From Armatimonadota bacterium (GTDB lineage: Bacteria > Armatimonadota > Hebobacteria > CAIYQO01), in contig JAKPKV010000141.1 of NCBI GenBank assembly GCA_029553475.1, positions 1-45,684 on the forward strand: a stretch of 45,684 bases of DNA, read 5' to 3'. Of the stretch, positions 18,643-45,684 are shown in pieces. Position 1 is the first letter of the stretch. Each line of letters opens with the position of its first letter. The notes beneath the pieces were generated by a model. The model was not told where the DNA came from. It did not search any database and was given only the letters and a program-made list of their open reading frames with translations. The position numbers and the translations under genes were made by a program.

Positions 18643-20004
18643 TCACTTGATGAATCCCTCATAGTGGCGCATCACCAGGTGCGCCTCGATCTGCTTCATG
18701 GTGTCCAGCGCCACGCCGACGACGATGAGCAGCGAGGTGCCGCCCCACAGCGGGAAGAGGTTCGCGTTCACGTCGTTCTCCGCCGCCTGCAGCAGCACCG
18801 GGATGATATACGGCAGCAGCGCCACCACGCCCAGGAAGATCGCCCCGGCGAAGGTGATGCGCGTGAGCACCTGGTCAATATACTGCTCGGTCTGCTTGCC
18901 CGGGCGCAGCCCCGGCACGAAGCTGCCGTGGTTCTTCAGGTTATCCGAGATATCCTGCACGTTGTAGATCACCGCCGTGTAGAAGTGGGTGAAGAAGACC
19001 ACGAGCAGGAAGTAGACCACCGCGCCCAGCCAGTGATAGCCCGGCGACAGCCACATCAGGTAATCGAGCCAGGTCTGCGGGTGGGCGAGATTCAGCGTGA
19101 TGTCCTGCGAGCGCGCCACCATCTGCGCGATGGTCGCCGGCAGCATCACCACCGAGATGGCGAAGATGATCGGGATCACGCCGGCGGTGACGATCTTCAG
19201 CGGCAGGTAGGTATTCGCCGCGCTGAAGGTGCGCCCGCCCACCTGGCGCTTCGCGTGCTGGATCGGGATCTGCCGCGTCGCCTGGTGCACGTAGGTGATG
19301 AACACCACGATGGCCAGGAAGATGAGGGCGATCACCAGCAGACTGGTCGTCGCCATCGCCAGGCTCGACTGCGCGCGGGCGACGGTGAAGATCTGCACGA
19401 TCGTCGTCGGCAGGCTGATCATGATGCCGGCGAAAATGATGAGCGAGATGCCGTTGCCGATGCCTTTGTCGGTGAGCTGCTCGCCCATCCACATCAGGAA
19501 CGACGTGCCGGCGGTCATCACCAGCACCAGCGGCACCACGCCGATCACCCCGAACGGCACCGTCACCGCGCCGATATTATAGAGATAGATACCCAAGCCG
19601 CCGGCCTGCAGCAGCGCGAGCACCACCGTGCCCCAGCGCGTGTAGGAGGAGATGACGCGGCGACCGCTCTGGCCCTCCTTCTGCAGCCGTTGAATCGAAG
19701 GAATGGCAATACCGAGCAACTGCATGATAATCGAGGCATTGATGTACGGCACGATCCCGAGCGCGAGGATGGAGAGGCGCCGGAACGCGCCGCCCGACAG
19801 AATGTCGAAGAGGCCGAACACCCCGGTCCGCGCCAATTCCTCGATTTTCGCCGGGTCCACGAACGGGGCGGGGATATGCAGCCCCGCCACGAACAGCGCG
19901 AACATGAACCCGACGAACATCAGCCGCTTCTTGAGGTCGGGCACCTGAATGGCCCGCCCCAGCCGCACCAATGACTCCCGCCATGTTGCCTCGTGTACTG
20001 GCAC
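18643..20004 (-). CDS. secY: Protein translocase subunit SecY
   Basis: Channel-forming subunit of the Sec translocon in the cytoplasmic membrane. The 453-residue protein has about ten hydrophobic segments. It begins with a cytosolic helix (IQVPDLKKRLMFVGFMFAL), and the plug-region segment LSGGAFRRLSILALGI follows. The conserved LQKEGQSGRRVISSYTRWGT, GIGNGISLIIFAGI and KNHGSFVPGLRPGKQTEQYI are all present. The GTG at 20004 directly follows the rplO stop and has GGAGG at 8 nt. Position in the spc operon between rplO and adk is canonical. Confidence 0.96.
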   Translation of the reverse strand: MPVHEATWRESLVRLGRAIQVPDLKKRLMFVGFMFALFVAGLHIPAPFVDPAKIEELARTGVFGLFDILSGGAFRRLSILALGIVPYINASIIMQLLGIAIPSIQRLQKEGQSGRRVISSYTRWGTVVLALLQAGGLGIYLYNIGAVTVPFGVIGVVPLVLVMTAGTSFLMWMGEQLTDKGIGNGISLIIFAGIMISLPTTIVQIFTVARAQSSLAMATTSLLVIALIFLAIVVFITYVHQATRQIPIQHAKRQVGGRTFSAANTYLPLKIVTAGVIPIIFAISVVMLPATIAQMVARSQDITLNLAHPQTWLDYLMWLSPGYHWLGAVVYFLLVVFFTHFYTAVIYNVQDISDNLKNHGSFVPGLRPGKQTEQYIDQVLTRITFAGAIFLGVVALLPYIIPVLLQAAENDVNANLFPLWGGTSLLIVVGVALDTMKQIEAHLVMRHYEGFIK

Positions 20005-20463
20005 TTATAGGACCTCCGTGCGCCCGCCGGCCGCGGCGATCTTCTCGGCGGCGCTGGCGCTGAAATGGTGCGCGGAGACGGTCAACGGTTTGGTGAGCTC
20101 GCCGCCGCCCAGCACGCGCAGGCCATCGCGCAGCGCGCGCACGAGGCCCGTCTGCACCAGGAGCGCGGGGGTGACGACGGTATGGGCGGCGAAACGGTCC
20201 AGTTGCCCGACGTTGATGATCGCGTACTCCTTGCGGAAGATGCCGATATTCATCGCCGTCTTGCTGATCCCCTTCCGCTTGCGCAGGCGGCGCTGGAGGG
20301 GGGTCTGTCCGCCTTCAAAGCCGGGCCGCACGGACCCGCGGGCCCACTGGCCCTTATGCCCGCGCGTGGCGGTTTTGCCGTGGCCCGACCCGGTGCCGCG
20401 CCCGACCCGCTTTTTGCCTGTGCGCGCGCCGTCCGGCGCCGCTAATGAATCCAACCGCATCAT
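20005..20463 (-). CDS. rplO: 50S ribosomal protein L15
   Basis: Late-assembly large-subunit protein. Recognised by [23 protein letters not shown] near residue 17, then [18 protein letters not shown] and the C-terminal [16 protein letters not shown]. The ATG at 20463 gives 152 residues beginning [10 protein letters not shown], as L15 usually does, with GGAG about 9 nt upstream. An ATG at 20493 overlaps the rpmD stop and would add ten residues without homology. The gene runs straight into the secY start. Confidence 0.95.
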
Positions 20464-20489
20464 GGTCTCGTACTCCACTCCTCGCGCTG

Positions 20490-20738
20490 TCATGCGTCGG
20501 GCGCTTCACGCGTCTCCACCACCAGCGCCACGACGGTCCCTTCCGCCTCGTCCTCCCGCACGGCCTGCACTTCCACCAGGTGGCGCACCTTGAAGGCCGC
20601 GCCGCGGGTGGCGGGATTGTCCGGCAGGACCACCGTCTGATTGAGTTTGCGCAGCCCCAGCGCCCGTACCGTGCGGCGCTGGTCCTCGGGGAAGGTAATC
20701 AGGCTCTTGCGCAGCGTGATTGCCAGCTTGCCACTCAT
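20490..20738 (-). CDS. rpmD: 50S ribosomal protein L30
   Basis: Small large-subunit protein. The core is typical ([48 protein letters not shown]). At 82 residues it is about 20 longer than common L30 because of a C-terminal extension ([20 protein letters not shown]). The ATG overlaps the rpsE stop (ATGA), and its own stop overlaps a possible upstream rplO start. Both junctions indicate translational coupling in rpsE-rpmD-rplO. Confidence 0.95.
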
Positions 20739-21262
20739 GCCACCTCTCCTCTCCGCATCGGCCGTCCGAGGATCTCCGCCACGCTCTTGCCGCGGATCGC
20801 CGCCACGTCTTCCACGGTGCGCAGCGCCTTCAGACAGCGCACCGTCGCCCAGGCGATGTTCACCGCGTTGTCCGACCCCAGCGATTTGGTGAGGATGTCC
20901 TTCACCCCCGCCACTTCCAGGATCGCGCGCACCGCGCCGCCGGCGATGACGCCGGTGCCGGGGGCGGCCGGCTTCAGCAGCACCAGCGCGGCGCCGAGGC
21001 GCTCCTGCACCGGGTGCGGGATGGTGCCGTCCACCATCGCGATTTTGAAGAGCGACTTGCGCGCCGCTTCCGCGCCCTTGCGGATGGCATCCGGCACCTC
21101 GGACGCTTTGCCGAGGCCCACGCCCACGTGGCCCTGCCCGTCGCCGACCGCGACCAGCGCGCTCCAGCGGAGCGTCCGCCCGCCCTTATGGACTTTCTGC
21201 ACGCGGTTGAGGGACACGACCTTCTCCTCGAGCTGCAGCGCTGATAGATCAATCTTCGCCAT
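20735..21262 (-). CDS. rpsE: 30S ribosomal protein S5
   Basis: Small-subunit fidelity protein, 175 residues, with the N-terminal double-stranded RNA-binding fold. It shows [54 protein letters not shown] and the [19 protein letters not shown] segment. [20 protein letters not shown] closes the domain. Length is normal. It follows rplR by about 30 nt, and its stop overlaps the rpmD start. Confidence 0.97.
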
Positions 21263-21292
21263 GCGTCTTCTCCGTCTTCAGGGTCCGGGCGC

Positions 21293-21664
21293 CTAAAACT
21301 CCAGGCCGCCGTCGCGCGCGCCGTCGGCGAGCGCCTTCACGCGACCGTGATACGGGTAGCCGCCCCGGTCGAATACTACCAGCGTGATGCCTTTCGCCGT
21401 CGCGCGCGCCGCCACCAGCGACCCGACGATCTTCGCCCCGCCGCTATTCCAGCTTTTCAGCGCCTCGCCTTGCTGGTCGCGAAACGCCGGCTCGTTCGTC
21501 GAGGCGGCGGCCAGCGTGTGGCCGGCCACGTCATCAATCACCTGGGCGTAGATGTGGCGCCCGCTGCGATGCACGACCAGGCGCGGGCGCTCCGGCGTCC
21601 CGCTGATCTTCGCGCGCACTCGGCGATGGCGTCGCTCGCGCGCGGCTTCTTTGTTCAGTTTCAT
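21293..21664 (-). CDS. rplR: 50S ribosomal protein L18
   Basis: 5S rRNA-binding protein of the central protuberance, 123 residues. It begins with the basic [20 protein letters not shown] and has [20 protein letters not shown]. The family segment [17 protein letters not shown] and the C-terminal [20 protein letters not shown], then [12 protein letters not shown], complete it. Normal length and context between rplF and rpsE. Confidence 0.97.
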
Positions 21665-21709
21665 CCCGCTCTCACCTCACTGCCGGGAGCCCTCACGGCC
21701 CCGCCCGCG

Positions 21710-22294
21710 TTATTTCTTGCCCTTGCCCGCCTTGGCGGCCTTGCCGGCCTTGCGCCGCACGACTTCGCCCGCGAAGCGGAGGCCTTTGCCCTTGTACGGT
21801 TCAGGCTTTTTCAGCGCGCGGATCTTCGCCGCCACCTGGCCGACCTTCTCCTTGCTGATGCCGGAGACCGTCAGACGCGCGGTGCAGTGCTGATTATCCA
21901 CGTTCGGCGACACCGTCTCCACCGCGATGGTGATCCCCGACGGCGGGATGACGATGACGTCGTGGGAGAACCCCAGGTTCAACACCACGCGGTCGCCCTG
22001 CAGCTGCGCGCGGTAGCCGATGCCGTGCAGCGACATCTGCCGGGTGAACCCCGTCGCCACCCCGTCCACCATGTTGGCGACCAGGCTGCGGGTGAGGCCG
22101 TGCAGCGCCTTGTGCGCCTTCACGTCGTCCGGCCGCTCCACGTAGAGCACCTCCGCGTCCCGGCGCACGGTAATCGGCGCGGGAATCGCCCGTGACAGCG
22201 TGCCTTTCGGCCCCTGCACGGTGATGATGCCCTCGGCTATCGCCACTGTCACCCCGTTCGGCAACGGGATCGGCTTGCGTCCAATCCGCGACAT
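21710..22294 (-). CDS. rplF: 50S ribosomal protein L6
   Basis: Large-subunit protein near the sarcin-ricin loop and the factor-binding site. The 194-residue protein begins MSRIGRKPIPLPNGVTVAI and has two tandem L6 domains. TVQGPKGTLSRAIP and LVANMVDGVATGFTRQM mark the first; LNLGFSHDVIVIPPSGITIA and KKPEPYKGKGLRFAGEVV mark the second. The Lys/Ala-rich end (KAGKAAKAGKGKK) is a common feature, slightly long here. A hairpin (22313-22331) lies ahead of its ribosome site. Confidence 0.97.
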   Translation of the reverse strand: MSRIGRKPIPLPNGVTVAIAEGIITVQGPKGTLSRAIPAPITVRRDAEVLYVERPDDVKAHKALHGLTRSLVANMVDGVATGFTRQMSLHGIGYRAQLQGDRVVLNLGFSHDVIVIPPSGITIAVETVSPNVDNQHCTARLTVSGISKEKVGQVAAKIRALKKPEPYKGKGLRFAGEVVRRKAGKAAKAGKGKK

Positions 22295-22312
22295 GCTTGC
22301 ACTCCCTGACTC

Positions 22313-22331
22313 GCGGGCGCCGCGCGCCCGC
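22313..22331 (-). other. Hairpin upstream of rplF
   Basis: An 8-bp perfect stem GCGGGCGC/GCGCCCGC with a 3-nt loop in the 43-nt spacer between rpsH and rplF. Confidence 0.5.
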
Positions 22332-22337
22332 CACGCA

Positions 22338-22739
22338 TTACCAGACCAGCGCGAGGACTTCGCCGCCGATTTTGTCGGCGCGCGCCTGCCGGTCGGTGAT
22401 CAACCCGCGGGAGGTGGTGAGAATGGCCACGCCCAGCCCGCCCTGCACCCGGGGAATATCCTGCCAGCCGACGTACAGGCGGCGGCCCGGCTTGCTGGCA
22501 CGGCGCAGCCCGCTGATGATCGGCTTGCGGCGCGGCCCGTAGCGCAGCGTGAGTTTCAGCAGCGCGCCGGGCGTCCCCGCGTCGGTGATCTCATACTTCT
22601 GAATATACCCTTCATCCTTCAACACGCGGGCGATCTCCGCCTTGATGCGCGACGCCGGGATCTCCACGGTGTCATGATCGGCGGCAACCGCGTTGCGGAT
22701 GCGGGTCAACATATCGGCGATGGGGTCAGTCAACGGCAT
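22338..22739 (-). CDS. rpsH: 30S ribosomal protein S8
   Basis: Central-domain 16S rRNA-binding protein, 133 residues. It begins [18 protein letters not shown] and contains [40 protein letters not shown] and [14 protein letters not shown]. The end shows [19 protein letters not shown] and GGEVLALVW. All are standard. S8 represses the spc operon in Escherichia coli; no such site was identified here. It follows rpsN by 10 nt. Confidence 0.97.
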
Positions 22740-22749
22740 CGCGATCCTC

Positions 22750-22935
22750 CTACCAACTCGACTTCGTCACGCCCGGCAACAGGCCGCGATGCGCGAAGGT
22801 GCGCAGGCAAATCCGGCACAGGCCGAACTTGCGGAAATACGCGCGCGGTCGCCCGCAGACGTGGCACCGGTTGTAGGCGCGCACGGCGAATTTCGGTTTC
22901 GATTTCCACGTTTCCAGTTTGCCTTTTTTGGCCAC
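22750..22935 (-). CDS. rpsZ: 30S ribosomal protein S14, type Z (zinc form)
   Basis: The 61-residue short form of S14 with a zinc site formed by CHVCGR near residue 24 and CRICLR near residue 39. It ends [14 protein letters not shown] as in other short forms. This C+ form is usual in Gram-positive-type and thermophilic bacteria. The ATG at 22935 is preceded by GAGGAGA. The spacer behind rplE holds the 10-bp palindrome CGGGCGCCCG. Confidence 0.97.
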
Positions 22936-22966
22936 GGCCGTTTCTCCTCGACGGGCGCCCGCCCGC

Positions 22967-23647
22967 TTAGCTCTTGCGCAGCGGCAGCCCCAGCAGGGTC
23001 AGCAGCGTCCGCGCTTCTTCATCGGTCTCCGCGGTGGTGACGATGGTGATATCCATGCCGCGCACGCGGTCAATACTGTCAATGCTGATCTCCGGGAAGA
23101 TCGTCTGGTCCTTGATGCCCAGGGTGTAGTTGCCGCGGCCGTCGAAGGATTTGGCCGGCAGGCCCTGGAAGTCGCGGATGCGCGGCAGCGCGATGGAGAA
23201 CAGCCGGTCCATGAACTCCCACATCCGCGCGCCCCGCAGCGTCACCTTGCAGCCGATGGGGTTGCCTTCGCGCAGCTTGAACGCCGCGATGGATTTCTTC
23301 GCCCGGGTCACCAGCGGCTTCTGCCCGCTGATGAGCGCCATCTCGCGCACGGCGTTGTCCAGCGTTTTGCTGTCCTGCAGCGCCTCGCCGACCCCCATGT
23401 TGATGATGACTTTCACCACCCGCGGAATCTGCATCACGTTGCCGTAGGCGAACTGCTCGCGCATCGCCGCCGCCACCTCGTCCCGGTAGCGCACGCGAAG
23501 GCGGGGCTCAGGCCCTTTCTCGACGTCGCCGGTGAACGCCACCGCGCCGCCCGCCGCCGCTTTCCCCTTGCCGGGCGCGCCGGGCTTGCCGGCCGGGGCC
23601 TTGCCGCCCTTCGGGGCGCCGCCCTTTTTCGCATCATCTTTAGCCAC
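22967..23647 (-). CDS. rplE: 50S ribosomal protein L5 with N-terminal extension
   Basis: 5S rRNA-binding protein of the central protuberance. The conserved part starts near residue 50 ([18 protein letters not shown]) and includes [39 protein letters not shown] and [18 protein letters not shown]. It ends [20 protein letters not shown]. The start is GTG at 23647 (226 residues): AAGGAG lies 6 nt before it. Compared with the usual ~180 residues there is an N-terminal extension of about 45, rich in Lys, Gly, Ala and Pro ([20 protein letters not shown]). Such a tail is probably disordered and RNA-binding (inference). Confidence 0.95.
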
Positions 23648-23723
23648 GGTAGACTCCTTATTGCACCTCACCATCCCGTTCGCGCCCCGATGGGCCGTCC
23701 GGCGGTGAGCCCTTGGTGGTCCG

Positions 23724-24230
23724 TTATGCCTGCGCCACGTCGGTGGGCCGCTCGATGTCGGCGCCGCACTGCTTGCAGACGCGGATGCGCCGTTTCACCT
23801 GCTTTGGGCCGCTCAGCGTGGTGCGCGTCGCGTCCACCTCGCGCATGCCCACGCGGGTCGGCTTGTCGCAATGCGGGCAGACGAGCATCACGCGGGAGAC
23901 GGGGATCGGCGCCTCCATCTCGATGCGCCCGCCCTGCTGCACCATGCCCGCGCCGCCGGTGGCGCGCGGTTTCTGGTGCTTCGTCACCTTGTTCAGCCCT
24001 TCGACGACCACCTTGCCCTCGCGCGGCAGCACGCGCAGCACCCGGCCGCGCACGCCCGCCACGGTGTTGGCGCGCTCGATCTGCTCGGCCATCGGCATGG
24101 TCTCGACCTGGGTGCGGAACTGCTCGGCCTGCTCGCGCTTCTCCAGGCCGGTCGCCTTACGCAGCCGGCTCAACCCCGCCCGGTCTCGTCCCGAGCGCAG
24201 ATAGACAATATCACCTTTGACGATCTTCAT
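23724..24230 (-). CDS. rplX: 50S ribosomal protein L24 with KOW-loop insertion and zinc ribbon
   Basis: Assembly initiator protein at the tunnel exit. The start [19 protein letters not shown] is the front half of the KOW motif, but the matching [20 protein letters not shown] comes only after about 40 extra residues (20-60). Those are charged and likely helical ([24 protein letters not shown]). The C-terminal part is the common zinc-ribbon version: CPHC at 118-121 and CKQC at 152-155. Total length is 168 residues against about 105 in the plain form. It is the first gene behind the internal promoter at 24276-24304. Gene order rplN-rplX-rplE is otherwise normal. Confidence 0.94.
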
Positions 24231-24275: not shown

Positions 24276-24304
24276 ATTGTACGGAAATTCCTCCGCGGTG
24301 TCAA
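24276..24304 (-). promoter_or_regulatory. Internal promoter of the spc operon, ahead of rplX
   Basis: On the minus strand TTGACA (24299-24304) and TACAAT (24276-24281) are separated by exactly 17 nt. The 147-nt spacer between rplN and rplX is longer than most in this locus, and the predicted start is about 40 nt before rplX. Confidence 0.8.
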
Positions 24305-24377: not shown

Positions 24378-24746
24378 TCACAGCACCTCCGGCGCCAGGC
24401 TGACGATCTTCATGAAATCCCGGTCGCGCAGCTCGCGGGCCACGGGGCCGAAGATGCGCGTGCCGCGCGGGTTCTTCGCCTCGTTGATGAGCACCGCGGC
24501 GTTGTCGTCGAAGCGGATGTACGAGCCGTCGGGCCGGCGCAGCGGGCGGCGCGTGCGCACCACCACCGCTTTGGCCACTTCGCCCTTCTTCACGCCGCCG
24601 CCCGGGGTGACCTGCTTCACGGCCACGACGATGATGTCGCCGATCTGCGCCGGGGTGCCCACCGAGCCCTTCAGCACGCGAATGCACTCCACCACGCGGG
24701 CGCCGGAATTATCTGCCACGTTCAACCGCGTCCGTAACGAAATCAT
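24378..24746 (-). CDS. rplN: 50S ribosomal protein L14
   Basis: Large-subunit protein at the subunit interface, 122 residues. It shows [60 protein letters not shown] and [20 protein letters not shown]. It ends [20 protein letters not shown] as usual. It should follow rpsQ directly, but here an EF-G paralogue gene lies between them, 31 nt upstream. After it comes a spacer with a promoter for rplX onward. Confidence 0.97.
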
Positions 24747-24777: not shown

Positions 24778-26862
24778 TCAGCGCTGCTCCTCTTCCCGCC
24801 GCTTCTTCGCCTCGGCGATGACCGCGTCGGCGACGTGCGGCGGCACCTCTTCATAGTGCGACAGGCTCATGGTGAAGCTGCCGCGGCCCTGCGTCAGCGC
24901 GCGGAGCTCGTTCGAGTACTGGAACATCTCCGCCTGCGGCACCTGGGCGCGCACGCTGGTGGTGCCCGGGCCGGCGGGCTCGGAGCCCTGCACGCGGCCG
25001 CGCTTGCTGGACAGCCCGCCGATGATGTCGCCGATATACTCGTCCGGGATGGTGATCTCGACGTTCACGTAGGGTTCCAACAGCACCGGCTGCGCCTTCG
25101 GCATGGCATCCTGGATCGCCAGGCGCCCCGCCGACTGGAAGGCGACGTCTTTCGAGTCCACCGGATGGTACTGCCCGTCGTAGAGCGTCACCCGCATATC
25201 CACCAGCGGATAGCCGGCGAGCGGGCCGCGCTTCAGCGCGTCGCGCACGCCCTTCTCGGTGGAGGGGATGAACTGCCGGGGCACGACGCCGCCGACCACC
25301 GCGTCCACGAACTCAAACCCCGCGCCGCGCTCCAGCGGCTCAACCCTGATCTTCACATCGCCGAACTGCCCGGCGCCGCCCGTCTGCTTCTTGTGGCGGC
25401 CATGGCCCTCGGCGGGGACGCGGATCGTCTCGCGGTAGGCGAGCGTCGGGTTGCCCAGCGCCGTCTCCACGTTGAATTTGCGCTTCAGCCGGTCGCGCAC
25501 CACTTCCAAGTGCAGCTCGCCCATGCCGGCGACGATCGCCTGGTGGGTTTCCGCGTCCTGCTCGAAGCGGAGCGTCGGATCCTCTTCCATGAAGCGGTGC
25601 ATCCCCTGCGCCAGCTTGTCCTCCTCGCCCTTGTTCAGCGGGGCGATGGAAAAATTCAACATCGGCACCGGGTAGGCGGGCGGCGCGATGGCGATATGGT
25701 CGGCGCCGGACAGCGTATCGGCGGTGGTGGTATCGTGCAGTTTCGCCACCAGCACGATATCGCCCGCTCTCGCGCTCTCCACCGCCTCCTGCTGCTTGCC
25801 GACGAAGACGAACAGGTTGCCGATGCGCTCCCGCGCGTCCTTCGTCACGTTGAACGCCTCGCTGCCGGAGGCCAGCGTGCCGGAGTAGACGCGCAGGAAG
25901 GTGATGCGGCCGGCGAACGGGTCGGCGGTGGTCTTGAAGGCGTAGGCGACCAGCGGGCCGGCGGGATTCGCCGTCAGCTCGATGTCCGCCTCCCCGCGCA
26001 GCGCGCCCACCGGCCCGGTCTGGGGGGGCGCGGGCGCCGCGGCGGTGAGGAGATCGAGCAGCGCGATGGTGCCGTAATTCTTGCCCGCGGCGCTGACGAG
26101 CACCGGGAAGGCGCGGCCGGCGCGGATGACGTCGCTCAGGCCGGTGACGATCTCCTCGTCGGTGAGTTCGCCCTCGTCCAGATACTTCAGCGTCAGGTCG
26201 TCATTCGCCTCGGCGGCGGCCTCGACGAGCTGCTCGCGCAGGGCCGCGGCGCGGTCCCGCAGTTCGACGGGGATCTCCACCGCCTGCGGCGCGGCGGTGT
26301 CGTCCGTCTCCCTGAACGCCTGCATGCGCACCAGGTCCACGTAGCCGGTGAAGCCGGCCTGCTCGCCGATGGGCAGCGCCAGCGCCACCACCGCGTTGCC
26401 GAAGCGGGCGCGCAGCGCGTCCAGCGTGCGGTCGAAGCTGGCGTGCTCCTTATCCAGCTTATTGATGACGATGAGCCGCGGCAGCGCGCGCTCGGCGGCC
26501 AGGCGCCAATAGCGCTCCGTCTGCACCTCGACGCCGTTCACCGCGTCCACCACCACCAGCGCGGCGTCCGCCACGAAGAGGGCGCCCACCACTTCGCTGA
26601 CGAAGTCGGCGTAGCCCGGCGTGTCGAGGACGTTGATCTTCACGCCGTGATACTGCACCGGCACGAGCGACGTGCTGACGGAAATCTGGCGCTGCACTTC
26701 GTCGGTATCGGTGTCCGACACGGTGGTGCCGGCATCCACGCGGCCCATGCGGCCCACGGCGCCCGTCTGATACATCAGCGCTTCCGCCAGCGTGGTTTTC
26801 CCGGCGCTGCCGTGGCCGATGAGGACGATATTGCGAATCTGTCCGCTCTCGTATACTTTCAT
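24778..26862 (-). CDS. Elongation factor G paralogue (EF-G2 type) inside the spc operon
   Basis: A 694-residue translational GTPase with the full five-domain EF-G plan. G motifs: [10 protein letters not shown] (about 16-25), [14 protein letters not shown] and SAAGKN. The switch I region reads [11 protein letters not shown] instead of the RGITI sequence of true EF-G, as in the EF-G2 group (for example Thermus EF-G-2 and mycobacterial FusA2). Domains III-V are recognisable: [59 protein letters not shown] and the C-terminal [10 protein letters not shown]. The bona fide EF-G is at 32960-35038. Tight spacing (33 nt from rpsQ, 31 nt to rplN) and an AGGAG site show co-expression with ribosomal proteins. 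Its role is unknown; it could be a back-up or stress translocase, a recycling factor or an assembly GTPase. Confidence 0.93.
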
Positions 26863-27176: not shown

Positions 27177-27464
27177 TCAGCGGGCTTTCCGCGCGGCGCG
27201 CCGGGCGGCGTTGGCGCCGGCCTGGTACGCCTGGTACTCGCGCATGGAGCGGAACCCGTGCGCCGCCATCAGCTCGTTCTCGCGGATGAGCGTCTTCAGC
27301 ACGGCGATGCGCTTGCGCGTGTTATGCATCCCGGCGGGATTCGTCAGGCGGTTGAGTCCGGCGTCGAAGCGATACGTGAGGAGCGCGCGCTCCGCCTCCG
27401 CCAGCTCCTTCTTCAATTCGTCAATCGTCATCCTGTGCAGACGATCGCGCTCTTGCAGTTTCAC
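27177..27464 (-). CDS. rpmC: 50S ribosomal protein L29
   Basis: Helical tunnel-exit protein next to L23. The core [20 protein letters not shown], with [20 protein letters not shown] and [14 protein letters not shown], is standard. At 95 residues it is about 25 longer than common L29: a C-terminal extension ([20 protein letters not shown]) follows. The ATG overlaps the rplP stop (ATGA). Confidence 0.95.
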
Positions 27465-27892
27465 AGCTCCTGCCCTCCTTCGGTCTCTTCGCGGGTGACG
27501 AAGCGCGTCTTGATGGGCAGCTTATACGACGCCAGGCGCATCGCTTCTTTCGCGATCTTCTCGGTCACGCCGGCGCACTCAAACAGGATGCGGCCGGGCT
27601 TGATCACCGCCACCCAGTGTTCCGGGGCGCCCTTGCCGGAGCCCATGCGGGTCTCCGCCGGCTTCGCGGTAATGCTCTTGTCCGGGAAGATGCGAATCCA
27701 CACTTTCCCCTGGCGTTTCATATAGCGGGTGATGGCCACGCGCGCCGCCTCAATCTGGCGATTCGTCATCCAGCACGGCTCCAGCGCCTGCAGGCCGAAC
27801 TCCCCCATCGCGACCGTATTGCCGCGGGTCGCTTTCCCCGTCATGCGCCCGCGATGCACGCGCCGGAATTTCACCTTCGCCGGCATTAACAT
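27461..27892 (-). CDS. rplP: 50S ribosomal protein L16
   Basis: Late-assembly protein near the peptidyl transferase centre, 143 residues. Diagnostic segments are [60 protein letters not shown] and the [20 protein letters not shown] loop. The ATG at 27892 has GGAGG at 8 nt; a second ATG two codons on is possible. It sits between rpsC and rpmC, overlapping the latter. Confidence 0.97.
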
Positions 27893-27916
27893 CGTATGGT
27901 CCTCCTCTGCTCGGCG

Positions 27917-28888
27917 TCAGGCCGATGTCTCCGGTCCCTCGGTGGCGGAGTCCGCGGCCGGGACCGCGGGGGTCTCGACCACCGGGGTCTCCCCCACGGT
28001 GTCGGTGAGCGGCGCCGCGGCCACCGCCTCGTCCGCCGGGGCGTCGGCCCGCGCGTCCGCCGGCGCGGCTTCGGTGCGCGCCACGCGCTTCCACCCCTTC
28101 TTCGCCGGGGCGTCCGCCGGCGCGCCGCCCGCGGCCGGGCGCGCCGCCGGCAGCGCCGGGCGCTCGCGTTGCGGCGGCAGCGGCGCGGTGCCGGGCAGGA
28201 TTTCGCCGCGATAGATCCACACCTTCACCCCGATGTTGCCATACTGGGTGCGGGCTTCGGCGATGCCGTAGTCAATGTCCGCGCGCAGAGTGTGCAGCGG
28301 GATCTTGCCGTCCTTGTCGCTGTAGCTGCGGGCGATTTCCGCCCCGCCCAGCCGGCCGGACACGATGACTTTGATCCCTTTGCCGCCGCGCTGCATGGTG
28401 CGGGCGATGGCCAGCCGGATGGCGCGCTTGAAGGACACGCGGCGCTCGATCTGGTTGGCGATGGATTCGGCCACCAGGTAGGCGTCCAGCTCCGGCGCCT
28501 TCACCTCCAGCACGTTGAGCTGCACGGTGCGCGGGATGAGTTTTTCCAGCTCGGCGCGGATCTCGTCAATGCCGCGTCCGCCGCGCCCGATGATCAGCCC
28601 AGGCCGCGCGGTGTGCAGCGTCACCTTGACCAGATTCGCCATGCGCTCGATCTCGATCTGCGAGACGCCGGCGTCCATGCCGCGGGCGCCGCGCCCGCCG
28701 CGCCCACCGCGCCCGCGCTGGACGGCGGCGGCGCCGGAGATGATGCCGGGCATTTTCGCGCGCAGGAACTGGCGGATCTTATGATCTTCCAACGCGAATT
28801 CCGCGTATTCCTTATCCGCGTACCAGCGACTCTGCCAGTCGCGGATGATGCCCAGGCGCATGCCGTATGGATGAACCTTCTGTCCCAT
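27917..28888 (-). CDS. rpsC: 30S ribosomal protein S3 with RGG insert and long C-terminal tail
   Basis: Small-subunit protein at the mRNA entry. It begins [20 protein letters not shown], has the KH domain with [14 protein letters not shown] near residue 97, and ends its conserved part with [18 protein letters not shown] near residue 232. Two additions are visible. Around residues 47-74 a Gly/Arg-rich stretch ([18 protein letters not shown]) sits between the N-terminal helix and the KH domain. About 90 residues rich in Ala, Pro, Asp and Thr follow the end. Total 323 residues against about 220. The frame is open throughout. Confidence 0.95.
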
Positions 28889-28891
28889 GCC

Positions 28892-29320
28892 TTAACTCCC
28901 CTTGCGCGTCGCCCGCGGGCGTTCGGCCACTTCAACGGTAATATGGCTGCTACGCCGCGTGATGACGCGCGCGCGGCCCATGGTGGTGGGGTGCATCCGC
29001 TTGAAGGAGCCCCCCTCGTCCACCACGGCGGTCTTCACGTACAGCCGCTCCGGGTCCAGCCCGAGCTGGTTCGGGTCAGCCGCGTTCGCCGCTGCGGACT
29101 CCAGCGCCTTGCGCACCGGCACGGCGGCCAGTACGCGGGTGAAGTGCAGGATATTCACCGCCTCCACGTAATCCTTGCCGCGGATCAGGTCTACCACGCG
29201 GCGCACTTTCAGCGGCGCGATGCGGATGTTCCGCGCCACCGCCAGCGCCACGCCCGCCGCGCGGCGCTGGGCGATGCGGGCGGCCTTGCGCGACCCTCGT
29301 CGTTGTTGATTCTTGCCCAT
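28892..29320 (-). CDS. rplV: 50S ribosomal protein L22
   Basis: Protein lining the exit tunnel by a long beta-hairpin. Recognised by NIRIAPLKVRRVVDLIRGKD, VPVRKALESAAANA and the hairpin region FKRMHPTTMGRARVITRRSS, followed by HITVEVAE. At 142 residues it has a basic N-terminal extension of about 25 (GKNQQRRGSRKAARIAQRRA). It follows rpsS by about 45 nt and precedes rpsC by 3 nt. Confidence 0.96.
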   Translation of the reverse strand: MGKNQQRRGSRKAARIAQRRAAGVALAVARNIRIAPLKVRRVVDLIRGKDYVEAVNILHFTRVLAAVPVRKALESAAANAADPNQLGLDPERLYVKTAVVDEGGSFKRMHPTTMGRARVITRRSSHITVEVAERPRATRKGS

Positions 29321-29364
29321 GGCAGTGTCCTATCTCCTCCCCGGACGGGAGTGCGTCTCTCCGC

Positions 29365-29646
<282 letters not shown>

Positions 29647-29674
29647 CTCGTCTCCTCCCCCGCGGGGCTGTGCC

Positions 29675-30508
29675 TTACTTCACGCCGCGGCGCTTCACGA
29701 TGAACCGGTCGGTTTCTTTGTTGTGGCGGGTCTTCTTGCCCAATGCCGGCTTGCCCCACGGGGTCGCCGGCCCCTTCTTGCGCCCGACCGGGCTGTGGCC
29801 TTCGCCGCCGCCGTGCGGATGGTCCACCGGGTTCATCGCCACCCCCACCACGTGGCCCTTGCGGCCCAGGTGGCGGACGCGGCCGGCTTTGCCGATCACC
29901 GCGTTCTCATGATCCACGTTCCCCACCTGGCCGACGGTGGCGCGGCAGCCGTGGAAGACGCGGCGCATCTCGCCCGAGGGCAGCAGCAGCGTCACGTATT
30001 TGCCGTCCTTCGCCATCACCTGCGCGTAGGTGCCGGCCGAGCGGCACATCTGCGCGCCGCGGCCTTCGTAGAGCTCCACGCCGTGCACCTGCGTCCCGAG
30101 CGGGATGGCGATGAGCGGCAGCGCGTTCCCCGGCTTGATGTCGGCGGTCGGGCCGGACTCCACCACGTCGCCCACCTTCAGCCCCAGCGGGGCGATGATG
30201 TAGCTGCGCACGCCGTCGGTATACTCGATGAGCGCGATGCGCGCGGAGCGGTTGGGATCGTATTCCAGCGCGAGCACCGTCGCCGGGATGTCGTCCTTCA
30301 GGCGCTTGAAATCAATCACCCGGTAGGCGCGCTTGGCGCCGCCGCCGCGGAAGCGCACGGTCACGCGACCGGCGTTGTTGCGGCCGCCCGTCTTCTTCAG
30401 CGGGCGCAGCAGGCGCTTCTCCGGCTCTTTCTTCGTCAGGTCGCTATAATCTACGGTGGTCATGAACCGCCGACCCGGTGAGGTCGGCCGGTAACTCTTC
30501 AACGGCAT
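29675..30508 (-). CDS. rplB: 50S ribosomal protein L2
   Basis: Highly conserved protein needed for peptidyl transferase activity and subunit joining, 277 residues. It shows [20 protein letters not shown] near the start and [17 protein letters not shown]. It also has [20 protein letters not shown] and the C-terminal [18 protein letters not shown], whose histidine is functionally important. It ends [10 protein letters not shown]. Normal length; the ATG at 30508 has GAGGAG upstream. Order rplW-rplB-rpsS is canonical. Confidence 0.97.
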
Positions 30509-30562
30509 TGCGGTCTCCTCGCCCGCGCGTCTCGGCCGCGGGCCGCCATCACGTCATCCCGA

Positions 30563-30883
30563 TCAGGCGCCTTCCAGCAGCGGGATATTCGGCGAATCCG
30601 CCGTCAGCGTCACGATCGCCTTCTTCCACGCGGGGGTCGTCCCCTCGCTGGCGCGGCGCCCGCGCGTCACCTGCACGCGGCGGCGCTTGCCGCGCACGTT
30701 CAGCGTGTTCACCTCGGCCACCTTCACCTTCTCCTTGGCGAAGAGCGCTTCCACGGCGCGCGCGATCTCCGGCTTGGTGGCGTCGCGGGCGACGATGAAG
30801 GTATATTTCTTGCCCTGCGCGCTGCTCACGCTTTTTTCGGTGAGAATCGGGCGAACCAGAATCTCATGGATGGGCTTCGTCAT
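30563..30883 (-). CDS. rplW: 50S ribosomal protein L23
   Basis: Tunnel-exit protein and docking site for trigger factor and SRP, 106 residues. It shows IHEILVRPILTEKSVSSAQG, KYTFIVARDATKPEIARAVE and VKVAEVNTLNVRGKRRRVQ. The C-terminus (WKKAIVTLTADSPNIPLLEG) is of the usual type. The ATG overlaps the rplD stop (ATGA). Confidence 0.97.
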   Translation of the reverse strand: MTKPIHEILVRPILTEKSVSSAQGKKYTFIVARDATKPEIARAVEALFAKEKVKVAEVNTLNVRGKRRRVQVTRGRRASEGTTPAWKKAIVTLTADSPNIPLLEGA

Positions 30884-31560
30884 GCGGCACCCCCTTCGGC
30901 GGTGATCGGCAGCCGGCGGGGCCCGACGGGCTGCTGCTTCAGTTCCTGGAAACGCTCGAGGCTGCCGCGGGTGAAGAGCAGGCGCTCAGCGCAGAGCACG
31001 TCATACGTGCAGAGCATCTGGGCGGTGGTCAATTGCACGTTCGGCAGGTTGCGGAAGGCGAGGATCGCCTCGTCGCCGGCGTCATCGAGCACGACGAGCA
31101 ACCGGCGGACCCCCGCCAGCCCCAGCGCGCCCAGCAGCTTCACCGCCTCGCGCGTCTTCGGCGCGGCCAGCCCGAAGGACTCCACCACCACCACGTGGGC
31201 GTCGGCGACGCGGGCGGAGAGGGCGGAGAGGAGCGCCTTGCGGCGCATCTTCTTCGGCAGCCCCTGGTCGTAGTCGCGCGGGTGCGGCCCGAAGGCGATG
31301 CCGCCGCCCTTCCAGTGCGGGGCGGAGCGCATGCCCTGGCGGGCGCGGCCGGTGCCCTTCTGGCGGTACACCTTGCGCGTGGAGTGGTGCACCTCGCCGC
31401 GGGTCTTCGTGTCGTGCGTGCCCTGCCGGCGGTTGGCCAGCGTGGCCACCACCGCCTGGTGCACGAGGGCCGGATTCGGCGCCACGCCGAACACCTCGTC
31501 GGCGAGGTCGAGCGACCCCGCGGTCTCGCCCGCGGGGGTATACAGCGGAATCGTTACCAT
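30880..31560 (-). CDS. rplD: 50S ribosomal protein L4
   Basis: Exit-tunnel protein and, in some bacteria, autogenous regulator of the S10 operon. The 226-residue protein has the tunnel loop THDTKTRGEVHHSTRKVYRQ, KGTGRARQGMRSAPHWKGGG and PKKMRRKALLSALSARV. NLPNVQLTTAQMLCTYDVLC lies in the C-terminal half. About 20 extra residues follow the usual end. The start overlaps the rplC stop by 7 nt, and its stop overlaps rplW. Confidence 0.96.
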   Translation of the reverse strand: MVTIPLYTPAGETAGSLDLADEVFGVAPNPALVHQAVVATLANRRQGTHDTKTRGEVHHSTRKVYRQKGTGRARQGMRSAPHWKGGGIAFGPHPRDYDQGLPKKMRRKALLSALSARVADAHVVVVESFGLAAPKTREAVKLLGALGLAGVRRLLVVLDDAGDEAILAFRNLPNVQLTTAQMLCTYDVLCAERLLFTRGSLERFQELKQQPVGPRRLPITAEGGAA

Positions 31561-32339
31561 GTGAAGTTCTCCAGAGCGGTGAAGGTGACCAGCTTGCCCT
31601 TGCCGCGCTCCACGACGGCCTGCGCGGGCAGGGTGACGACCACCAGGCCGCCCACCGGGCCCGGCACGGCGCCCTTGAGCACCAGCATCTGCCGCTCGGC
31701 GTCGGCGCGCACCACGGTCAGCCCCTTGACGGTGACCTTCTCGGCGCCCATGTGGCCGGGACGGCGGGCATTCTTGAAGACGCGGGCGGCATCGGTGGCG
31801 CCGGCGGACGCCGGCTTGCGATGGAACATCGAGCCGTGGGTGGCGCGCCCGCCGCGGAAGCCGTAGCGCTTCACCACGCCGGCGAAGCCGCGGCCCTTGG
31901 AGGTGCCGGACACGTCCACCTTCTCGCCGGCCGTGAAGATGTCGGCGCGGATTTCCATCCCGGCGGGAAAATCGTCCGGCGCGGCCACGCGGAATTCCTT
32001 GAGGTGGCGCAGCGGCGGCACGTTGGCCGCCGCGCAGTGGCCGTATTCCGCGAGCGTCAGCCGGCGGTGGGCGGTCTCTTTGACCGCGCCGCGCTCGCCG
32101 GTCTTGCGGCGCTGCTCGTGCACGCGGCGCAGCTCCTGCACGCGCTTCTGATCGCGTTCTTCATACGGCAGGTAGCCGAGCTGCACGGCCTCGTAGCCAT
32201 CGCGCGCCATGGTGCGGCGCTGCACGACATAACAGGGACCTACTTCCAGCACGGTGACGGGAATGGCCTTCCCGTCGTCGGAAAAGATCTGCGTCATGCC
32301 CACTTTTCGTCCCATAATCATCTTGCGAATCATCGCCAT
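31554..32339 (-). CDS. rplC: 50S ribosomal protein L3 with internal insertion
   Basis: Early-assembly protein near the peptidyl transferase centre. It begins with [15 protein letters not shown] and [16 protein letters not shown], and later shows [36 protein letters not shown] and [18 protein letters not shown]. At 261 residues it is longer than the common ~210. About 40 residues, charged and likely helical ([19 protein letters not shown]), are inserted between VQLGY (about 56) and LRHLKEFRV (about 110). The ATG at 32339 has an AGGAAAGG site. The leader contains a 7-bp hairpin (32411-32430). Confidence 0.95.
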
Positions 32340-32410
32340 GGTGTGTTCACCCTTTCCTACCCCAGCGGAGCCGTGAGCGGACTCTTGGGGCCGACCCCTC
32401 GGGTCGTCAG

Positions 32411-32430
32411 GCGCAACGGGGCGGTTGCGC
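32411..32430 (-). other. Hairpin between rpsJ and rplC
   Basis: A perfect 7-bp stem GCGCAAC/GTTGCGC with a 6-nt loop starts at the rpsJ stop codon. It is followed by further small inverted repeats in the 90-nt spacer. No U-tract. Confidence 0.5.
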
Positions 32431-32759
32431 TAGATTTTAATTTCAATATGCACGCCGCCCGGGAGATCAATGCGCATCAGCGCATCAATCGTCCGCTGGT
32501 TCGGCTCCAGGATGTCAATCATCCGCTTGTGCGTCCGCATCTCAAAGTGCTCCATGGACTCCTTGTCAATATGCGGGGAGCGGATGACGCAAAACTTGCT
32601 GATCTCGGTGGGCAGGGGCACCGGCCCGGCCACGCGGGCGCCGGTGCGGCGAGCCGTCTCCACGATCTTCAGCGCGGACGCATCCAGAATCCGATGGTCG
32701 TAGGATTTCAGCCGGATGCGAATCTTGTCTCCCGGAACCTTGCGAGTCTCTTTACGCAT
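32430..32759 (-). CDS. rpsJ: 30S ribosomal protein S10
   Basis: Small-subunit head protein, also the NusE antitermination factor. The 109-residue protein contains [40 protein letters not shown] and [20 protein letters not shown]. It ends [10 protein letters not shown]. The start is the ATG at 32759 with GGAGG about 10 nt upstream. An in-frame ATG at 32786 adds non-conserved residues and lies within the leader hairpin. It is the first gene of the S10 set and has its own promoter at 32847-32875. tuf, usually directly upstream, is missing. Confidence 0.97.
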
Positions 32760-32776
32760 GGACGGTGTGCCTCCAC

Positions 32777-32792
32777 GGTGGGCCATCCCACC
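32777..32792 (-). promoter_or_regulatory. Leader hairpin of rpsJ with AUGG loop
   Basis: A perfect 6-bp stem GGUGGG/CCCACC with an AUGG loop, 17 nt before the rpsJ start. Loop and position match the hairpins ahead of rplX and fusA. Confidence 0.5.
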
Positions 32793-32812
32793 TTCACGTT
32801 TTCACGGTGCCG

Positions 32813-32836
32813 GCGCCAAGGGGCGGCCCCTGGCGC
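32813..32836 (-). other. Second leader hairpin of the S10 transcript
   Basis: An inverted repeat (GCGCCA ... TGGCGC, extended by four G-C pairs after one bulge) lies in the 5' part of the predicted S10 leader. It may take part in leader-mediated control; that is inferred. Confidence 0.45.
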
Positions 32837-32846
32837 ACAGACGTAA

Positions 32847-32875
32847 ATGATAGTGATTTCGCGCGCCGCCGTCAA
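32847..32875 (-). promoter_or_regulatory. Promoter of the S10 operon
   Basis: On the minus strand TTGACG (32870-32875) and TATCAT (32847-32852) are 17 nt apart. The 200-nt region between fusA and rpsJ holds this promoter and two leader hairpins, and no gene. Confidence 0.7.
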
Positions 32876-32959
32876 CCGGTTTCGCCGGGAATTTTACCGG
32901 AATTTCCCCGAAACACCGGAAAAAGCGGCGCTTTTCCCCGCCAAGCAACCGGACGTTCG

Positions 32960-35038
32960 CTACCGCGCCGGCCGCCCGAGGACGGCGTCCGCGAGGGAGC
33001 GCGGCACCTCCTGGTAGTGCGACGGCTCCATGGTATACTCCGCGCGCCCCTGGCTGAGCGAGCGCACCACGGTGGCGTAGCCGAACATCTCCGCCAGCGG
33101 CACTTTGGCGCGGATCGCCTGCACGCCGCCGGGCTGGGGCTCCACCCCGTCAATGTGCGCGCGCCGCGCGCTCAAATCGCCCAGGATATCGCCGATATTC
33201 ACCTCGGGGCAGATCACCTCGACCTTCATGATCGGCTCCAGCAGCGTCGGCTTCGCCCGGCGCATCGCCTCCTTGAAGGCGATGGAGCCGGCGAACTTGA
33301 AGGACATCTCGTCGGAGTCCACGTCGTGGTAGGAGCCGTCGTACAGGCTCGCTTTCAGGTCAATCACCGGATAGCCGCCCAGGACGCCGGTATCCATCGC
33401 CTCGCGCATGCCGCTCTCGACCGCCGGAATATACTCTTTCGGCACCACGCCGCCGACCACCGCGTCTTCGAAGACGAAGCCGCTCCCCGGCTCCAGCGGC
33501 TCCAGCGCGATCCAGACGTGCCCGTATTTGCCGCGGCCGCCGGTCTGGCGCACGTAGCGCCCTTCCGCCTTCGCCGGCGCGGTGATCGTCTCGCGGTAGG
33601 CCACCTGCGGGCGGCCGATGTTCGCCTCGACGCGGAACTCGCGCTTCAGCCGGTCCACGATGATCTCCAGGTGCAGCTCCCCCATGCCGGAGATGATCGT
33701 CTGCCCGGTCTCCGGGTCGGTATAGCGGCGGAAGGTGGGGTCCTCGGCGGCCAGCCGCGCCAACCCCTCGGTCAGCTTCTCTTCGTCCGCTTTCGTCTTC
33801 GGCTCGATGGCCACCGAGATCACCGGCTCCGGGAAGTGAATCTGCTCGAGCAGGATGGGCGCGCCGCTCACCGCCAGCGTGTCGCCGGTGGTGGTGTGAT
33901 GCAGCCCGACCACGGCGACGATGTCGCCGGTGCGGATTTCGTCCACTTCCTCGCGGTGGTTGGCGTGCATGCGCAGGATGCGCCCCAGCCGCTCGTGGCG
34001 CCCCTTCGATACATTCGCGACGCCGGTGCCCTTCGGCAGCGTGCCCGAGTACACCCGGAGGTAGGTGAGCCGGCCCACGTAGGGGTCGGACATGATTTTG
34101 AACGCCAGGGCGCAAAACGGCGCGTCGTCGCTGGGGTCGCGGGTGATCTCCTCGTCGGTCACCGGGTGCTTGCCCGTGACGGCGCCGACATCCACCGGCG
34201 ACGGCAGGTACTCCACCACCGCGTCCATCAGCGGCTGCACGCCCTTGTTCTTGAAGGAGGCGCCGCAGAGGATGGGCACGATGGCGAAGCGCAGCGTCTG
34301 CGCGCGGATGCCGGCGCGCAGCTCCGCCTCCGTCAGCGTCTCCCCTTCCAGATACTTGTGCGTCAGCGCGTCGCTGCCGTCGGCGGCGGCTTCCACCAGG
34401 CGCTCGTGGTACTCCGCCGCCAGCGCGCGATAGTCCGCGGGGATCTCCTCGTCGCGCACCACGGTCCCCAGCTCGTCGGGGTAGATGAGCGCGCGCATGC
34501 GCACCAGGTCAATGAGCCCGCGAAAATCGCCTTCCGCGCCGATGGGGAGCTGCAGCGGGACGGGGTGGATGCCCAGCCGCTCGCGCATGGCGTCGAGCAC
34601 GCGGTAGAAATCCGCGCCGGTGCGGTCCATCTTGTTGACGAACGCGATGCGGGGCACGCGGTAGCGGTTGGCCTGCCGCCAGACCGTCTCCGACTGCGGC
34701 TGCACGCCGCCCACGGCGCAGAAGAGGCCGACGACGCCGTCCAGCACGCGCATGGAGCGCTCCACCTCCATGGTGAAGTCCACGTGGCCGGGGGTGTCAA
34801 TGATATTGATGCGGTGGTCGCGCCAGTGGCAGGACGTCGCCGCCGAGGTGATGGTGATGCCGCGCTCCTGCTCCTGCGGCATCCAGTCCATGGTGGCGGT
34901 GCCGTCATGCACCTCCCCCATCCGATGCAGGCGCCCCGTGTAAAAGAGGATGCGCTCGGTGGTGGTGGTCTTGCCGGCGTCAATGTGCGCGGCGATCCCG
35001 ATATTTCTGGTCTGCGTTAACGCGTATTCTCGTCCCAT
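32960..35038 (-). CDS. fusA: Elongation factor G (bona fide)
   Basis: Translocase of protein synthesis and, with RRF, recycling factor. The 692-residue protein has canonical G motifs: [15 protein letters not shown] (P-loop, about 17-31), switch [40 protein letters not shown] and [10 protein letters not shown]. The later domains show [36 protein letters not shown] and the domain IV tip [13 protein letters not shown]. It stands in the str operon after rpsG with a 180-nt spacer that carries leader hairpins. Comparison with the paralogue at 24778-26862 shows that this copy keeps the switch I consensus. Confidence 0.97.
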
Positions 35039-35218: not shown

Positions 35219-35689
35219 CTAGAAGCGATAGTGCGCGAAGGCCTTGTTCGCTTCCGCCATGCGGTGCGTATCTTCCCGCTTCTTCACGGACGCGCCGGTG
35301 TTGTTGGCGGCATCCAGAAATTCGGCGGCCAGGCGCTCCTGCATCGTTTTCCCGCCGCGCTTGCGCGCGTTGGCGATGAGCCAGCGAATCCCCAGGTCCA
35401 GCTTGCGGACCGGGCGCACTTCCATCGGCACCTGATAGGTGGCGCCGCCCACGCGGCGCGGGCGCACCTCGACCATCGGCATCACGTTGCGCATGGCCTG
35501 CTCGAAGACCTCCAGCGGATCCTTACCCGTGCGCGTGTGCACCAACTCGAGCGCGCCATAGAAGATGGCCTCGGCCTTGCTCTTCTTCCCGTTCAACATG
35601 ATCTTGTTGATGAAGCGGGAGATCAATTCACTGTGGAACACCGCATCCGGCTGCACGTCTCGACGCGGCGCTGGTCCTTTTCTCGGCAT
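35219..35689 (-). CDS. rpsG: 30S ribosomal protein S7
   Basis: Head-organising 16S rRNA-binding protein, 156 residues, the canonical size. It begins [20 protein letters not shown] and has [39 protein letters not shown] and the [20 protein letters not shown] segment. It ends [20 protein letters not shown]. The ATG at 35689 follows GAGGGAAG. S7 is the str operon repressor in E. coli. Order rpsL-rpsG-fusA is standard. Confidence 0.97.
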
Positions 35690-35746
35690 CGCTTTGCTTC
35701 CCTCGTTCACTGATAGTCGGCGGGCGCGGACGGCGCCCCCCGCGCG

Positions 35747-36184
35747 TTATTTCTTCGCCGCGCCGGCTTTCGGGCGCTTCGCGCCGTACTTGGAGCGACC
35801 CTGCTTGCGGTTCTGCACCCCGGCGGTGTCCAGCACGCCGCGGACGATGTGGTAGCGGATGCCCGGCAGATCCTTCACGCGGCCGCCGCGGATCATCACC
35901 ACGGAGTGCTCCTGCAGGTTATGGCCTTCGCCCGGGATATACGCCGTCACTTCGATGCGGTTCGTCAGGCGCACGCGCGCCACCTTGCGCAGCGCGGAGT
36001 TCGGCTTCTTCGGCGTGACGGTCCAGACGCGCGTACAGACGCCGCGCTTGAACGGGCCGCCGGTGTGGACGAACTTGCGTCGGTTCGTGTTGAAGTTCCA
36101 CGTCAGCGCCCACCGCACGGTCGGGCTGACCTTCACCTGCTTTTCCTTGCGCCCTTTGCGGACTAACTGATTGATGGTCGGCAC
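35747..36184 (-). CDS. rpsL: 30S ribosomal protein S12 with loop insertion
   Basis: Decoding-centre protein. The start is GTG at 36184 (145 residues), beginning (M)[12 protein letters not shown], with AAGGGAGAGG upstream. Conserved segments: [20 protein letters not shown] (the streptomycin-resistance lysine is in TPKK), [10 protein letters not shown] and [20 protein letters not shown], in which the following Asp is the residue methylthiolated in some species. An insertion of about 20 residues (23-42, [20 protein letters not shown]) lies between the N-terminal tail and the core. It is the first gene of the locus, behind a consensus promoter. Confidence 0.96.
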
Positions 36185-36213
36185 GCGGGCCTCTCCCTTC
36201 AGCGACACATTCC

Positions 36214-36234
36214 CGGCGCGCCGCTGACGCGCGC
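36214..36234 (-). other. Leader hairpin of rpsL
   Basis: Inverted repeat GGCGCGC/GCGCGCC around a 7-nt loop in the ~90-nt leader of the str transcript. A smaller one (CGCAC/GTGCG) lies next to it. Confidence 0.4.
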
Positions 36235-36277
36235 CAAGACGCACGGCGTGCGAGCCGCGCATGGCAGACAGCGGAGA

Positions 36278-36306
36278 ATTGTAGCAAGACCTTCGGACCT
36301 TGTCAA
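36278..36306 (-). promoter_or_regulatory. Promoter of the str operon (rpsL)
   Basis: On the minus strand TTGACA (36301-36306) and TACAAT (36278-36283) are exactly 17 nt apart. The leader to the rpsL GTG is about 90 nt. Confidence 0.85.
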
Positions 36307-37557: not shown

Positions 37558-37608
37558 ATCGCCGACCGGCGGCGCGTCACCGTTCCCGCCCCATCGGTAC
37601 CTTCCTGA

Positions 37609-37639
37609 CGGATGAGCGGGCCCCGTGCCCGCTCATCCG
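37609..37639 (+). terminator. Hairpin between gap and pgk
   Basis: A perfect 12-bp stem CGGATGAGCGGG/CCCGCTCATCCG with a 7-nt loop, 24 nt before the pgk start. It lacks a U-tract, so it may be a partial terminator or an mRNA-stability element. Confidence 0.55.
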
Positions 37640-37663
37640 CGTCTTGGACCACGGAGGACTCAC

Positions 37664-38887: not shown

Positions 38888-38906
38888 CCCGGCGCACACA
38901 CCGGAG

Positions 38907-43786: not shown

Positions 43787-43788
43787 GA

Positions 43789-45684
<1,896 letters not shown>

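Follow-up and report, generated by a model that had tools for sequence, protein, structure and literature searches.

EFG II is among the commonest duplicates of EF-G in bacteria and makes up a widespread family, the normal job of which is unsettled, as the three members studied so far disagree. The family is marked by loss of the RGITI sequence of switch I, with Ser in place of Thr, and by a conserved set of further positions (Margus et al., 2011; PMC3150367). Thermus EF-G2 is given, where PMC3832671 cites it, as a ribosome-dependent GTPase with low poly(U) (poly(Phe)) activity; its intrinsic GTPase is described as higher in PMC3150367 and as little in PMC3832671. Mycobacterium smegmatis EF-G2, according to the same citing text in PMC3832671, shows no ribosome-dependent GTPase activity. 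Bacteroides thetaiotaomicron EF-G2 is reported to promote translocation without GTP hydrolysis (Han et al., 2023, as cited in PMC12775393).

The window considered here is the whole stretch of 45,684 nucleotides analysed from an Armatimonadota genome. An initial annotation had noticed that the rpsQ–rplN order of its spc operon is interrupted by a complete 694-residue EF-G paralogue on the same strand, with gaps of 33 and 31 nt, a good ribosome site of its own and the true fusA 6 kb upstream. It proposed an EF-G tree and a search for homologues flanked by rpsQ and rplN as checks. The gene coordinates reproduce the order, the strand and both gaps, AGGAG lies 6 nt ahead of the ATG, and fusA is found about 6.1 kb upstream. 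The genes concerned, in the order of reading, are:

35219-36262, minus strand: rpsG and rpsL, start of the str–S10–spc run (TIGR01029, TIGR00981)
32960-35038, minus strand: fusA, the canonical EFG I gene of the str operon (TIGR00484, 1102 bits), with RGITI and DTPGH kept
27177-32786, minus strand: S10 genes rpsJ, rplC, rplD, rplW, rplB, rpsS, rplV, rpsC, rplP and rpmC
26896-27162, minus strand: rpsQ (S17; TIGR03635), directly upstream of the EFG II gene with a gap of 33 nt
24778-26862, minus strand: EFG II (EF-G2-type) gene, ATG start, 694 amino acids, intact, with a full-length EF-G fold
24378-24746, minus strand: rplN (L14; TIGR01067, 184 bits), directly downstream of the EFG II gene with a gap of 31 nt
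18643-24230, minus strand: remainder of the spc genes, rplX, rplE, rpsN, rpsH, rplF, rplR, rpsE, rpmD, rplO and secY
22750-22935, minus strand: rpsN, within the spc operon

Among these, rplD, rplW, rpsS, rplV and rpsC were named from position and from tblastn co-location in relatives. The ribosomal protein genes form one minus-strand run that starts at rpsL (36262), takes in fusA, the S10 genes and the spc genes and ends with secY (18643), and the EFG II gene lies inside the spc part of it. Another 26 Armatimonadota genomes share the rpsQ–EFG–rplN junction, two single-contig assemblies (G006 and G012) and the metagenome-assembled genomes (MAGs) DeMMO6_22 (L038) and 'Ca. Zipacnadia' (L065) among them, so that chance and assembly artefact are both rejected. 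No tuf gene is present between fusA and rpsJ (32786-32960), the str operon passing straight into the S10 operon. A gene for a RelA/SpoT-type (p)ppGpp enzyme lies at 41552-43813 on the minus strand, about 5 kb upstream of rpsL. Two long minus-strand ORFs at 37577-38899 and 43822-45633 have very low codon adaptation (0.41 and 0.33, respectively) and may be shadows of plus-strand genes; the former has no Pfam match. An Rfam search of the window gave no match.

The paralogue and fusA are the only full-length EF-G genes of this genome, and their products share 45% identity. Against the NCBIfam models, the paralogue scores 889 bits with NF009381 (the PRK12740 EF-G subfamily) and 674 bits with the EFG I model, and it falls below the cut-offs of the named EF-G2 models and of the tetracycline-protection models. 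A tetracycline ribosomal protection protein is ruled out by its 327 bits to tet_protect, the cut-off of which is 775. Thirteen diagnostic positions of EFG II, position 64 counted, were taken from two tables of PMC3150367 and read on an alignment with Thermus thermophilus EF-G numbering. The paralogue has the EFG II state at 12 of the 13 (type I, 6/6; type II, 6/7, the exception being Asn at 224), while the fusA product has the EFG I state at all six type I positions. RGITI is replaced in the paralogue by RQISV, with the Ser at the fourth position that EFG II requires, and the gene is accompanied by another EF-G, as EFG II always is. In place of the RGITI, DTPGH and str location of EFG I, it has RQISV, DTPGY and a place in the spc cluster. 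An EFG tree of 88 rows sets 80 EFG II rows apart from eight EFG I rows with support of 100. The AlphaFold model of the protein (pLDDT 91.5, pTM 0.84) matches ribosome-bound EF-G structures with TM values up to 0.91-0.93, M. smegmatis EF-G2 on the 70S ribosome (9k0z) with 0.89 and ribosome-bound B. thetaiotaomicron EF-G2 (8dmf) with 0.86. The chains of 7uvp and 8dmf are labelled as tetracycline resistance protein TetQ in the PDB sequence file; the entry title of 8dmf names B. thetaiotaomicron EF-G2, and YGYSV in switch I is the motif form of Bacteroidetes EFG II. Motif, tree and fold all identify the paralogue as EFG II, which is the assignment that the initial annotation had made. Its closest named relatives are in the MAGs DeMMO6_22 (74% identity) and UR.bin144 (96% over 72 residues).

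An EF-G match at the threshold used was present in 281 of 291 Armatimonadota genomes, most of which have two. The neighbourhood was read in the 83 genomes with a located EFG II gene, and in 71 of them the gene is inside the spc cluster, at one of two sites: between rpsQ and rplN (site A; 27 genomes of 15 families, the window's among them) or between rplE and rpsN (site B; 44 genomes of 17 families). The spc location is thus kept across 32 families, which make up most of those sampled, the named Zipacnadia MAG being counted as a family of its own. Gaps at site A are mostly shorter than 100 nt. Once rescored with rpsN, the gene order up to rpsH was as expected in 33/33 site B loci and in 18/19 site A loci, the remaining locus itself ending early. 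The two sites are related by a single exchange of the EFG gene with the rplN–rplX–rplE block. In the other 12 genomes, which belong to Fimbriimonadaceae (f15) and f5 with one each of f31 and f8, EFG II lies elsewhere. Normal rpsQ–rplN adjacency is seen in 14 genomes, Fimbriimonadaceae among them, in which EFG II is missing or located elsewhere, and three near-complete genomes (G025, G031 and G024; L293, L294 and L295) have one EF-G each, an EFG I. EFG II is not strictly required, as these three genomes do without it, and nor is its location, given that in Fimbriimonadaceae it lies outside the cluster; the three genomes are natural test cases for the cost of losing it.

In samples, not a census, of other phyla, EFG II was beside spc genes in none of 93 loci (Chloroflexota 30, Omnitrophota 16, Actinomycetota 20, Acidobacteriota 27). 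Four genes in str operons, with rpsL and rpsG as neighbours, had been labelled type II by the script; they were read as EFG I because of their place, not rechecked singly, and are excluded from the 93. Genomes of other phyla with EFG II elsewhere have ordinary spc order wherever the junction is readable. The initial annotation knew of no described example, and none of an EF-G gene in the spc operon or in Armatimonadota ribosomal protein clusters was found in the open-licence literature, although an earlier note in a subscription paper is possible. It had also considered that the insertion might be common and already assigned in a well-studied phylum. Common it is, across Armatimonadota, but that phylum is not well studied. 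The EFG II family is already known; what we have not found described is that a phylum holds it in a fixed place in the spc cluster, at two junctions related to each other.

A tree built on 16 spc/S10 proteins of 63 genomes shows site B as one clade (support 100) and site A as a single side of a branch (weak support, 49); its two label changes over three groups are the minimum possible. In the EFG tree, site B is also one clade, which encloses the relocated genes of Fimbriimonadaceae and f31 and leaves those of f5 outside. Site A falls into pieces in the free EFG trees, split among other phyla. Likelihoods are higher when site A is held together or when all Armatimonadota are held on one side (p-AU 0.7 and 0.625, respectively), so the free-tree split is not evidence of separate origins; a single origin, with site A as one clade and Armatimonadota as one side, is not rejected by these sequence comparisons. 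Recent horizontal transfer or mobile insertion is rejected, as both trees give site B as one clade and allow site A as one. Most simply, the gene would have entered the spc cluster once, early on, and switched sites once, with some lineages later moving it out or losing it. The EFG II genes of f5 (L302/G028 and L301/G014; L031 and L030) lie outside the spc cluster and branch separately from the genes of both sites; they could represent a second lineage or one that diverged early.

The domain IV tip and loop I are the parts of EF-G that enter the decoding site during translocation. The tip residues His566, Val568, Asp569 and Ser570 (H566-x-V-D-S) are invariant in 49/49 aligned EFG II sequences, and loop I of the window protein is positively charged (GRHKKQTGG). 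In the GTPase domain, the P-loop is intact and the switch I Thr is changed to Ser. The catalytic His after DTPG is Tyr in the window protein (Tyr84) and is His in no Armatimonadota EFG II examined; the same position is Tyr in Thermus EF-G2 (1WDT) and M. smegmatis EF-G2 (9k0z) and Ser in the Bacteroides protein. The loss of RGITI noticed by the initial annotation is real, but its conclusion that the GTPase cycle must therefore differ is not supported, because this loss, together with the change of Thr to Ser, is a defining trait of EFG II (PMC3150367) and nothing special to the window protein, and Thermus EF-G2, which likewise lacks RGITI, is reported to be active. A prediction of GTPase loss from the change of His to Tyr was likewise dropped, as Thermus EF-G2, reported to be GTPase-active, has the same Tyr. 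With Tyr in both active and inactive relatives, GTPase activity is unpredictable from the sequence.

A consensus scan found a promoter-like sequence, TTGACA-17-TACAAT, before rpsL (36278-36306, minus strand; 11/12, promoter-like only) and another between rplN and rplX (24276-24304, minus strand), downstream of the EFG II gene, and it found no promoter-like site in the 33 nt gap between rpsQ and the EFG II gene. The two sites have identical hexamers, and the latter may act as a second promoter, for the spc genes that follow rplN. The codon adaptation index relative to ribosomal proteins is 0.774 for EFG II and 0.776 for fusA, and the EFG II value exceeds that of every other non-ribosomal gene measured in the window. 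Comparison with a family relative gave dN of 0.18, dS of 1.08 and dN/dS of about 0.17, a figure that is rough because dS is near 1; that of the adjoining rpsQ is about 0.22. The substitution pattern clearly indicates purifying selection on EFG II. The gene would be co-transcribed with the ribosomal protein genes, and its product is probably made in step with ribosomes, as the initial annotation had proposed, in view of the tight same-strand spacing, the gap without a promoter-like site, the fusA-like codon bias and the deep conservation of the site.

In the reading that we prefer, to which we give a probability of about 0.55, Armatimonadota EFG II is a second translocase with altered GTP use that is made together with ribosomes as a result of an old and vertically inherited integration into the spc cluster. 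The gene would have joined the cluster early in Armatimonadota and then been inherited vertically there. Read on one transcript with ribosomal proteins, it would be produced at high, growth-coupled levels. The protein would most likely bind the factor site of the 70S ribosome and, with its kept domain IV tip and loop I, push tRNA and mRNA beside EF-G. Because switch I and the catalytic His are changed, it probably hydrolyses GTP more slowly or with looser coupling, as reported for some other EFG II proteins. It would accordingly be a routine partner of the ribosome, not a back-up induced by starvation. A bolder form of this reading, which we hold as a tentative and rather doubtful idea, has two parallel translocases encoded in one ribosomal protein super-operon, a hydrolysing EF-G and a slow or non-hydrolysing EFG II as its standing partner. 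If true, the standing partner could serve messages that are hard to translocate, the saving of GTP or the testing of new ribosomes.

The initial annotation had suggested assembly, recycling or a second translocation step rather than stress back-up. Translocation is favoured among these by the invariant tip; the other two are possible, and no sequence feature favours them over it. As a factor for ribosome biogenesis or quality check, EFG II would test-translocate or check newly made 70S ribosomes or subunits. The placing of its gene in the spc cluster across the phylum, at either of two sites, would suit such a role, as would GTPase changes that could favour longer stay on the ribosome. This is nevertheless unlikely, since fusA is also in a ribosomal protein operon, yet is no assembly factor, and the domain IV tip is kept as in translocases.

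That EFG II is a back-up translocase for stress or starvation, like its Bacteroides relative, is quite unlikely. Starvation does induce the best-studied EFG II relative (PMC6989115, PMC10994844), and EFG II can be lost or moved, so that its place in the operon might be a historical accident with regulation independent of it; the short gap without a promoter-like site, codon bias like that of fusA and a location kept across so many families speak against this. Distinctly improbable is an EF-G specialised for recycling with RRF, like spirochaete spdEFG2 or mitochondrial EF-G2. There is precedent for EF-G functions split between paralogues (PMC3150367 and references therein), but such a division is described for cases without EFG I, and this genome has a canonical EFG I. 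The paralogue also has EFG II diagnostic positions, although phylogenetic exclusion is partial as the tree had no spdEFG2 rows. Neutral hitch-hiking, in which a chance insertion into an operon that is hard to undo left an ordinary EFG II in a meaningless location, needs only one origin per site to explain the data, but is very improbable because exit seems possible, as judged from intact rpsQ–rplN in Fimbriimonadaceae and in genomes without EFG II, yet 71/83 genomes keep the gene in the cluster, where a high-output operon would impose the cost of producing a 694-residue protein.

A second translocase made in step with ribosomes remains the preferred reading. That a phylum keeps EFG II in the most conserved ribosomal protein cluster, at two junctions, is strong context evidence for a growth-coupled role on the ribosome, and Armatimonadota supply culturable, non-pathogenic species for tests of EFG II. 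The arrangement also shows that the spc operon can be interrupted at rpsQ–rplN and at rplE–rpsN and that such interruptions can persist across a phylum.

Compared with known systems, the window protein is like the EFG II proteins 1WDT, 9k0z and 8dmf in sequence, diagnostic positions, replaced RGITI, fold and replaced catalytic His, whereas EFG II of the other sampled phyla is away from the spc cluster and that of Armatimonadota is mostly inside it. With fusA (EFG I) it shares the EF-G fold, a location in a ribosomal protein operon and similar codon bias, although EFG I keeps RGITI and DTPGH and the two are only 45% identical. The pairs spdEFG1/spdEFG2 and mitochondrial EF-G1/EF-G2 resemble the present case in that EF-G is duplicated and labour divided, but they belong to a different subfamily and are described where EFG I is absent (PMC3150367), while the window genome has EFG I. 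B. thetaiotaomicron EF-G2 serves as a starvation factor that is very low during growth and is induced by carbon limitation (PMC6989115); from the residence of EFG II in the ribosomal protein cluster, the opposite regulation is predicted in Armatimonadota.
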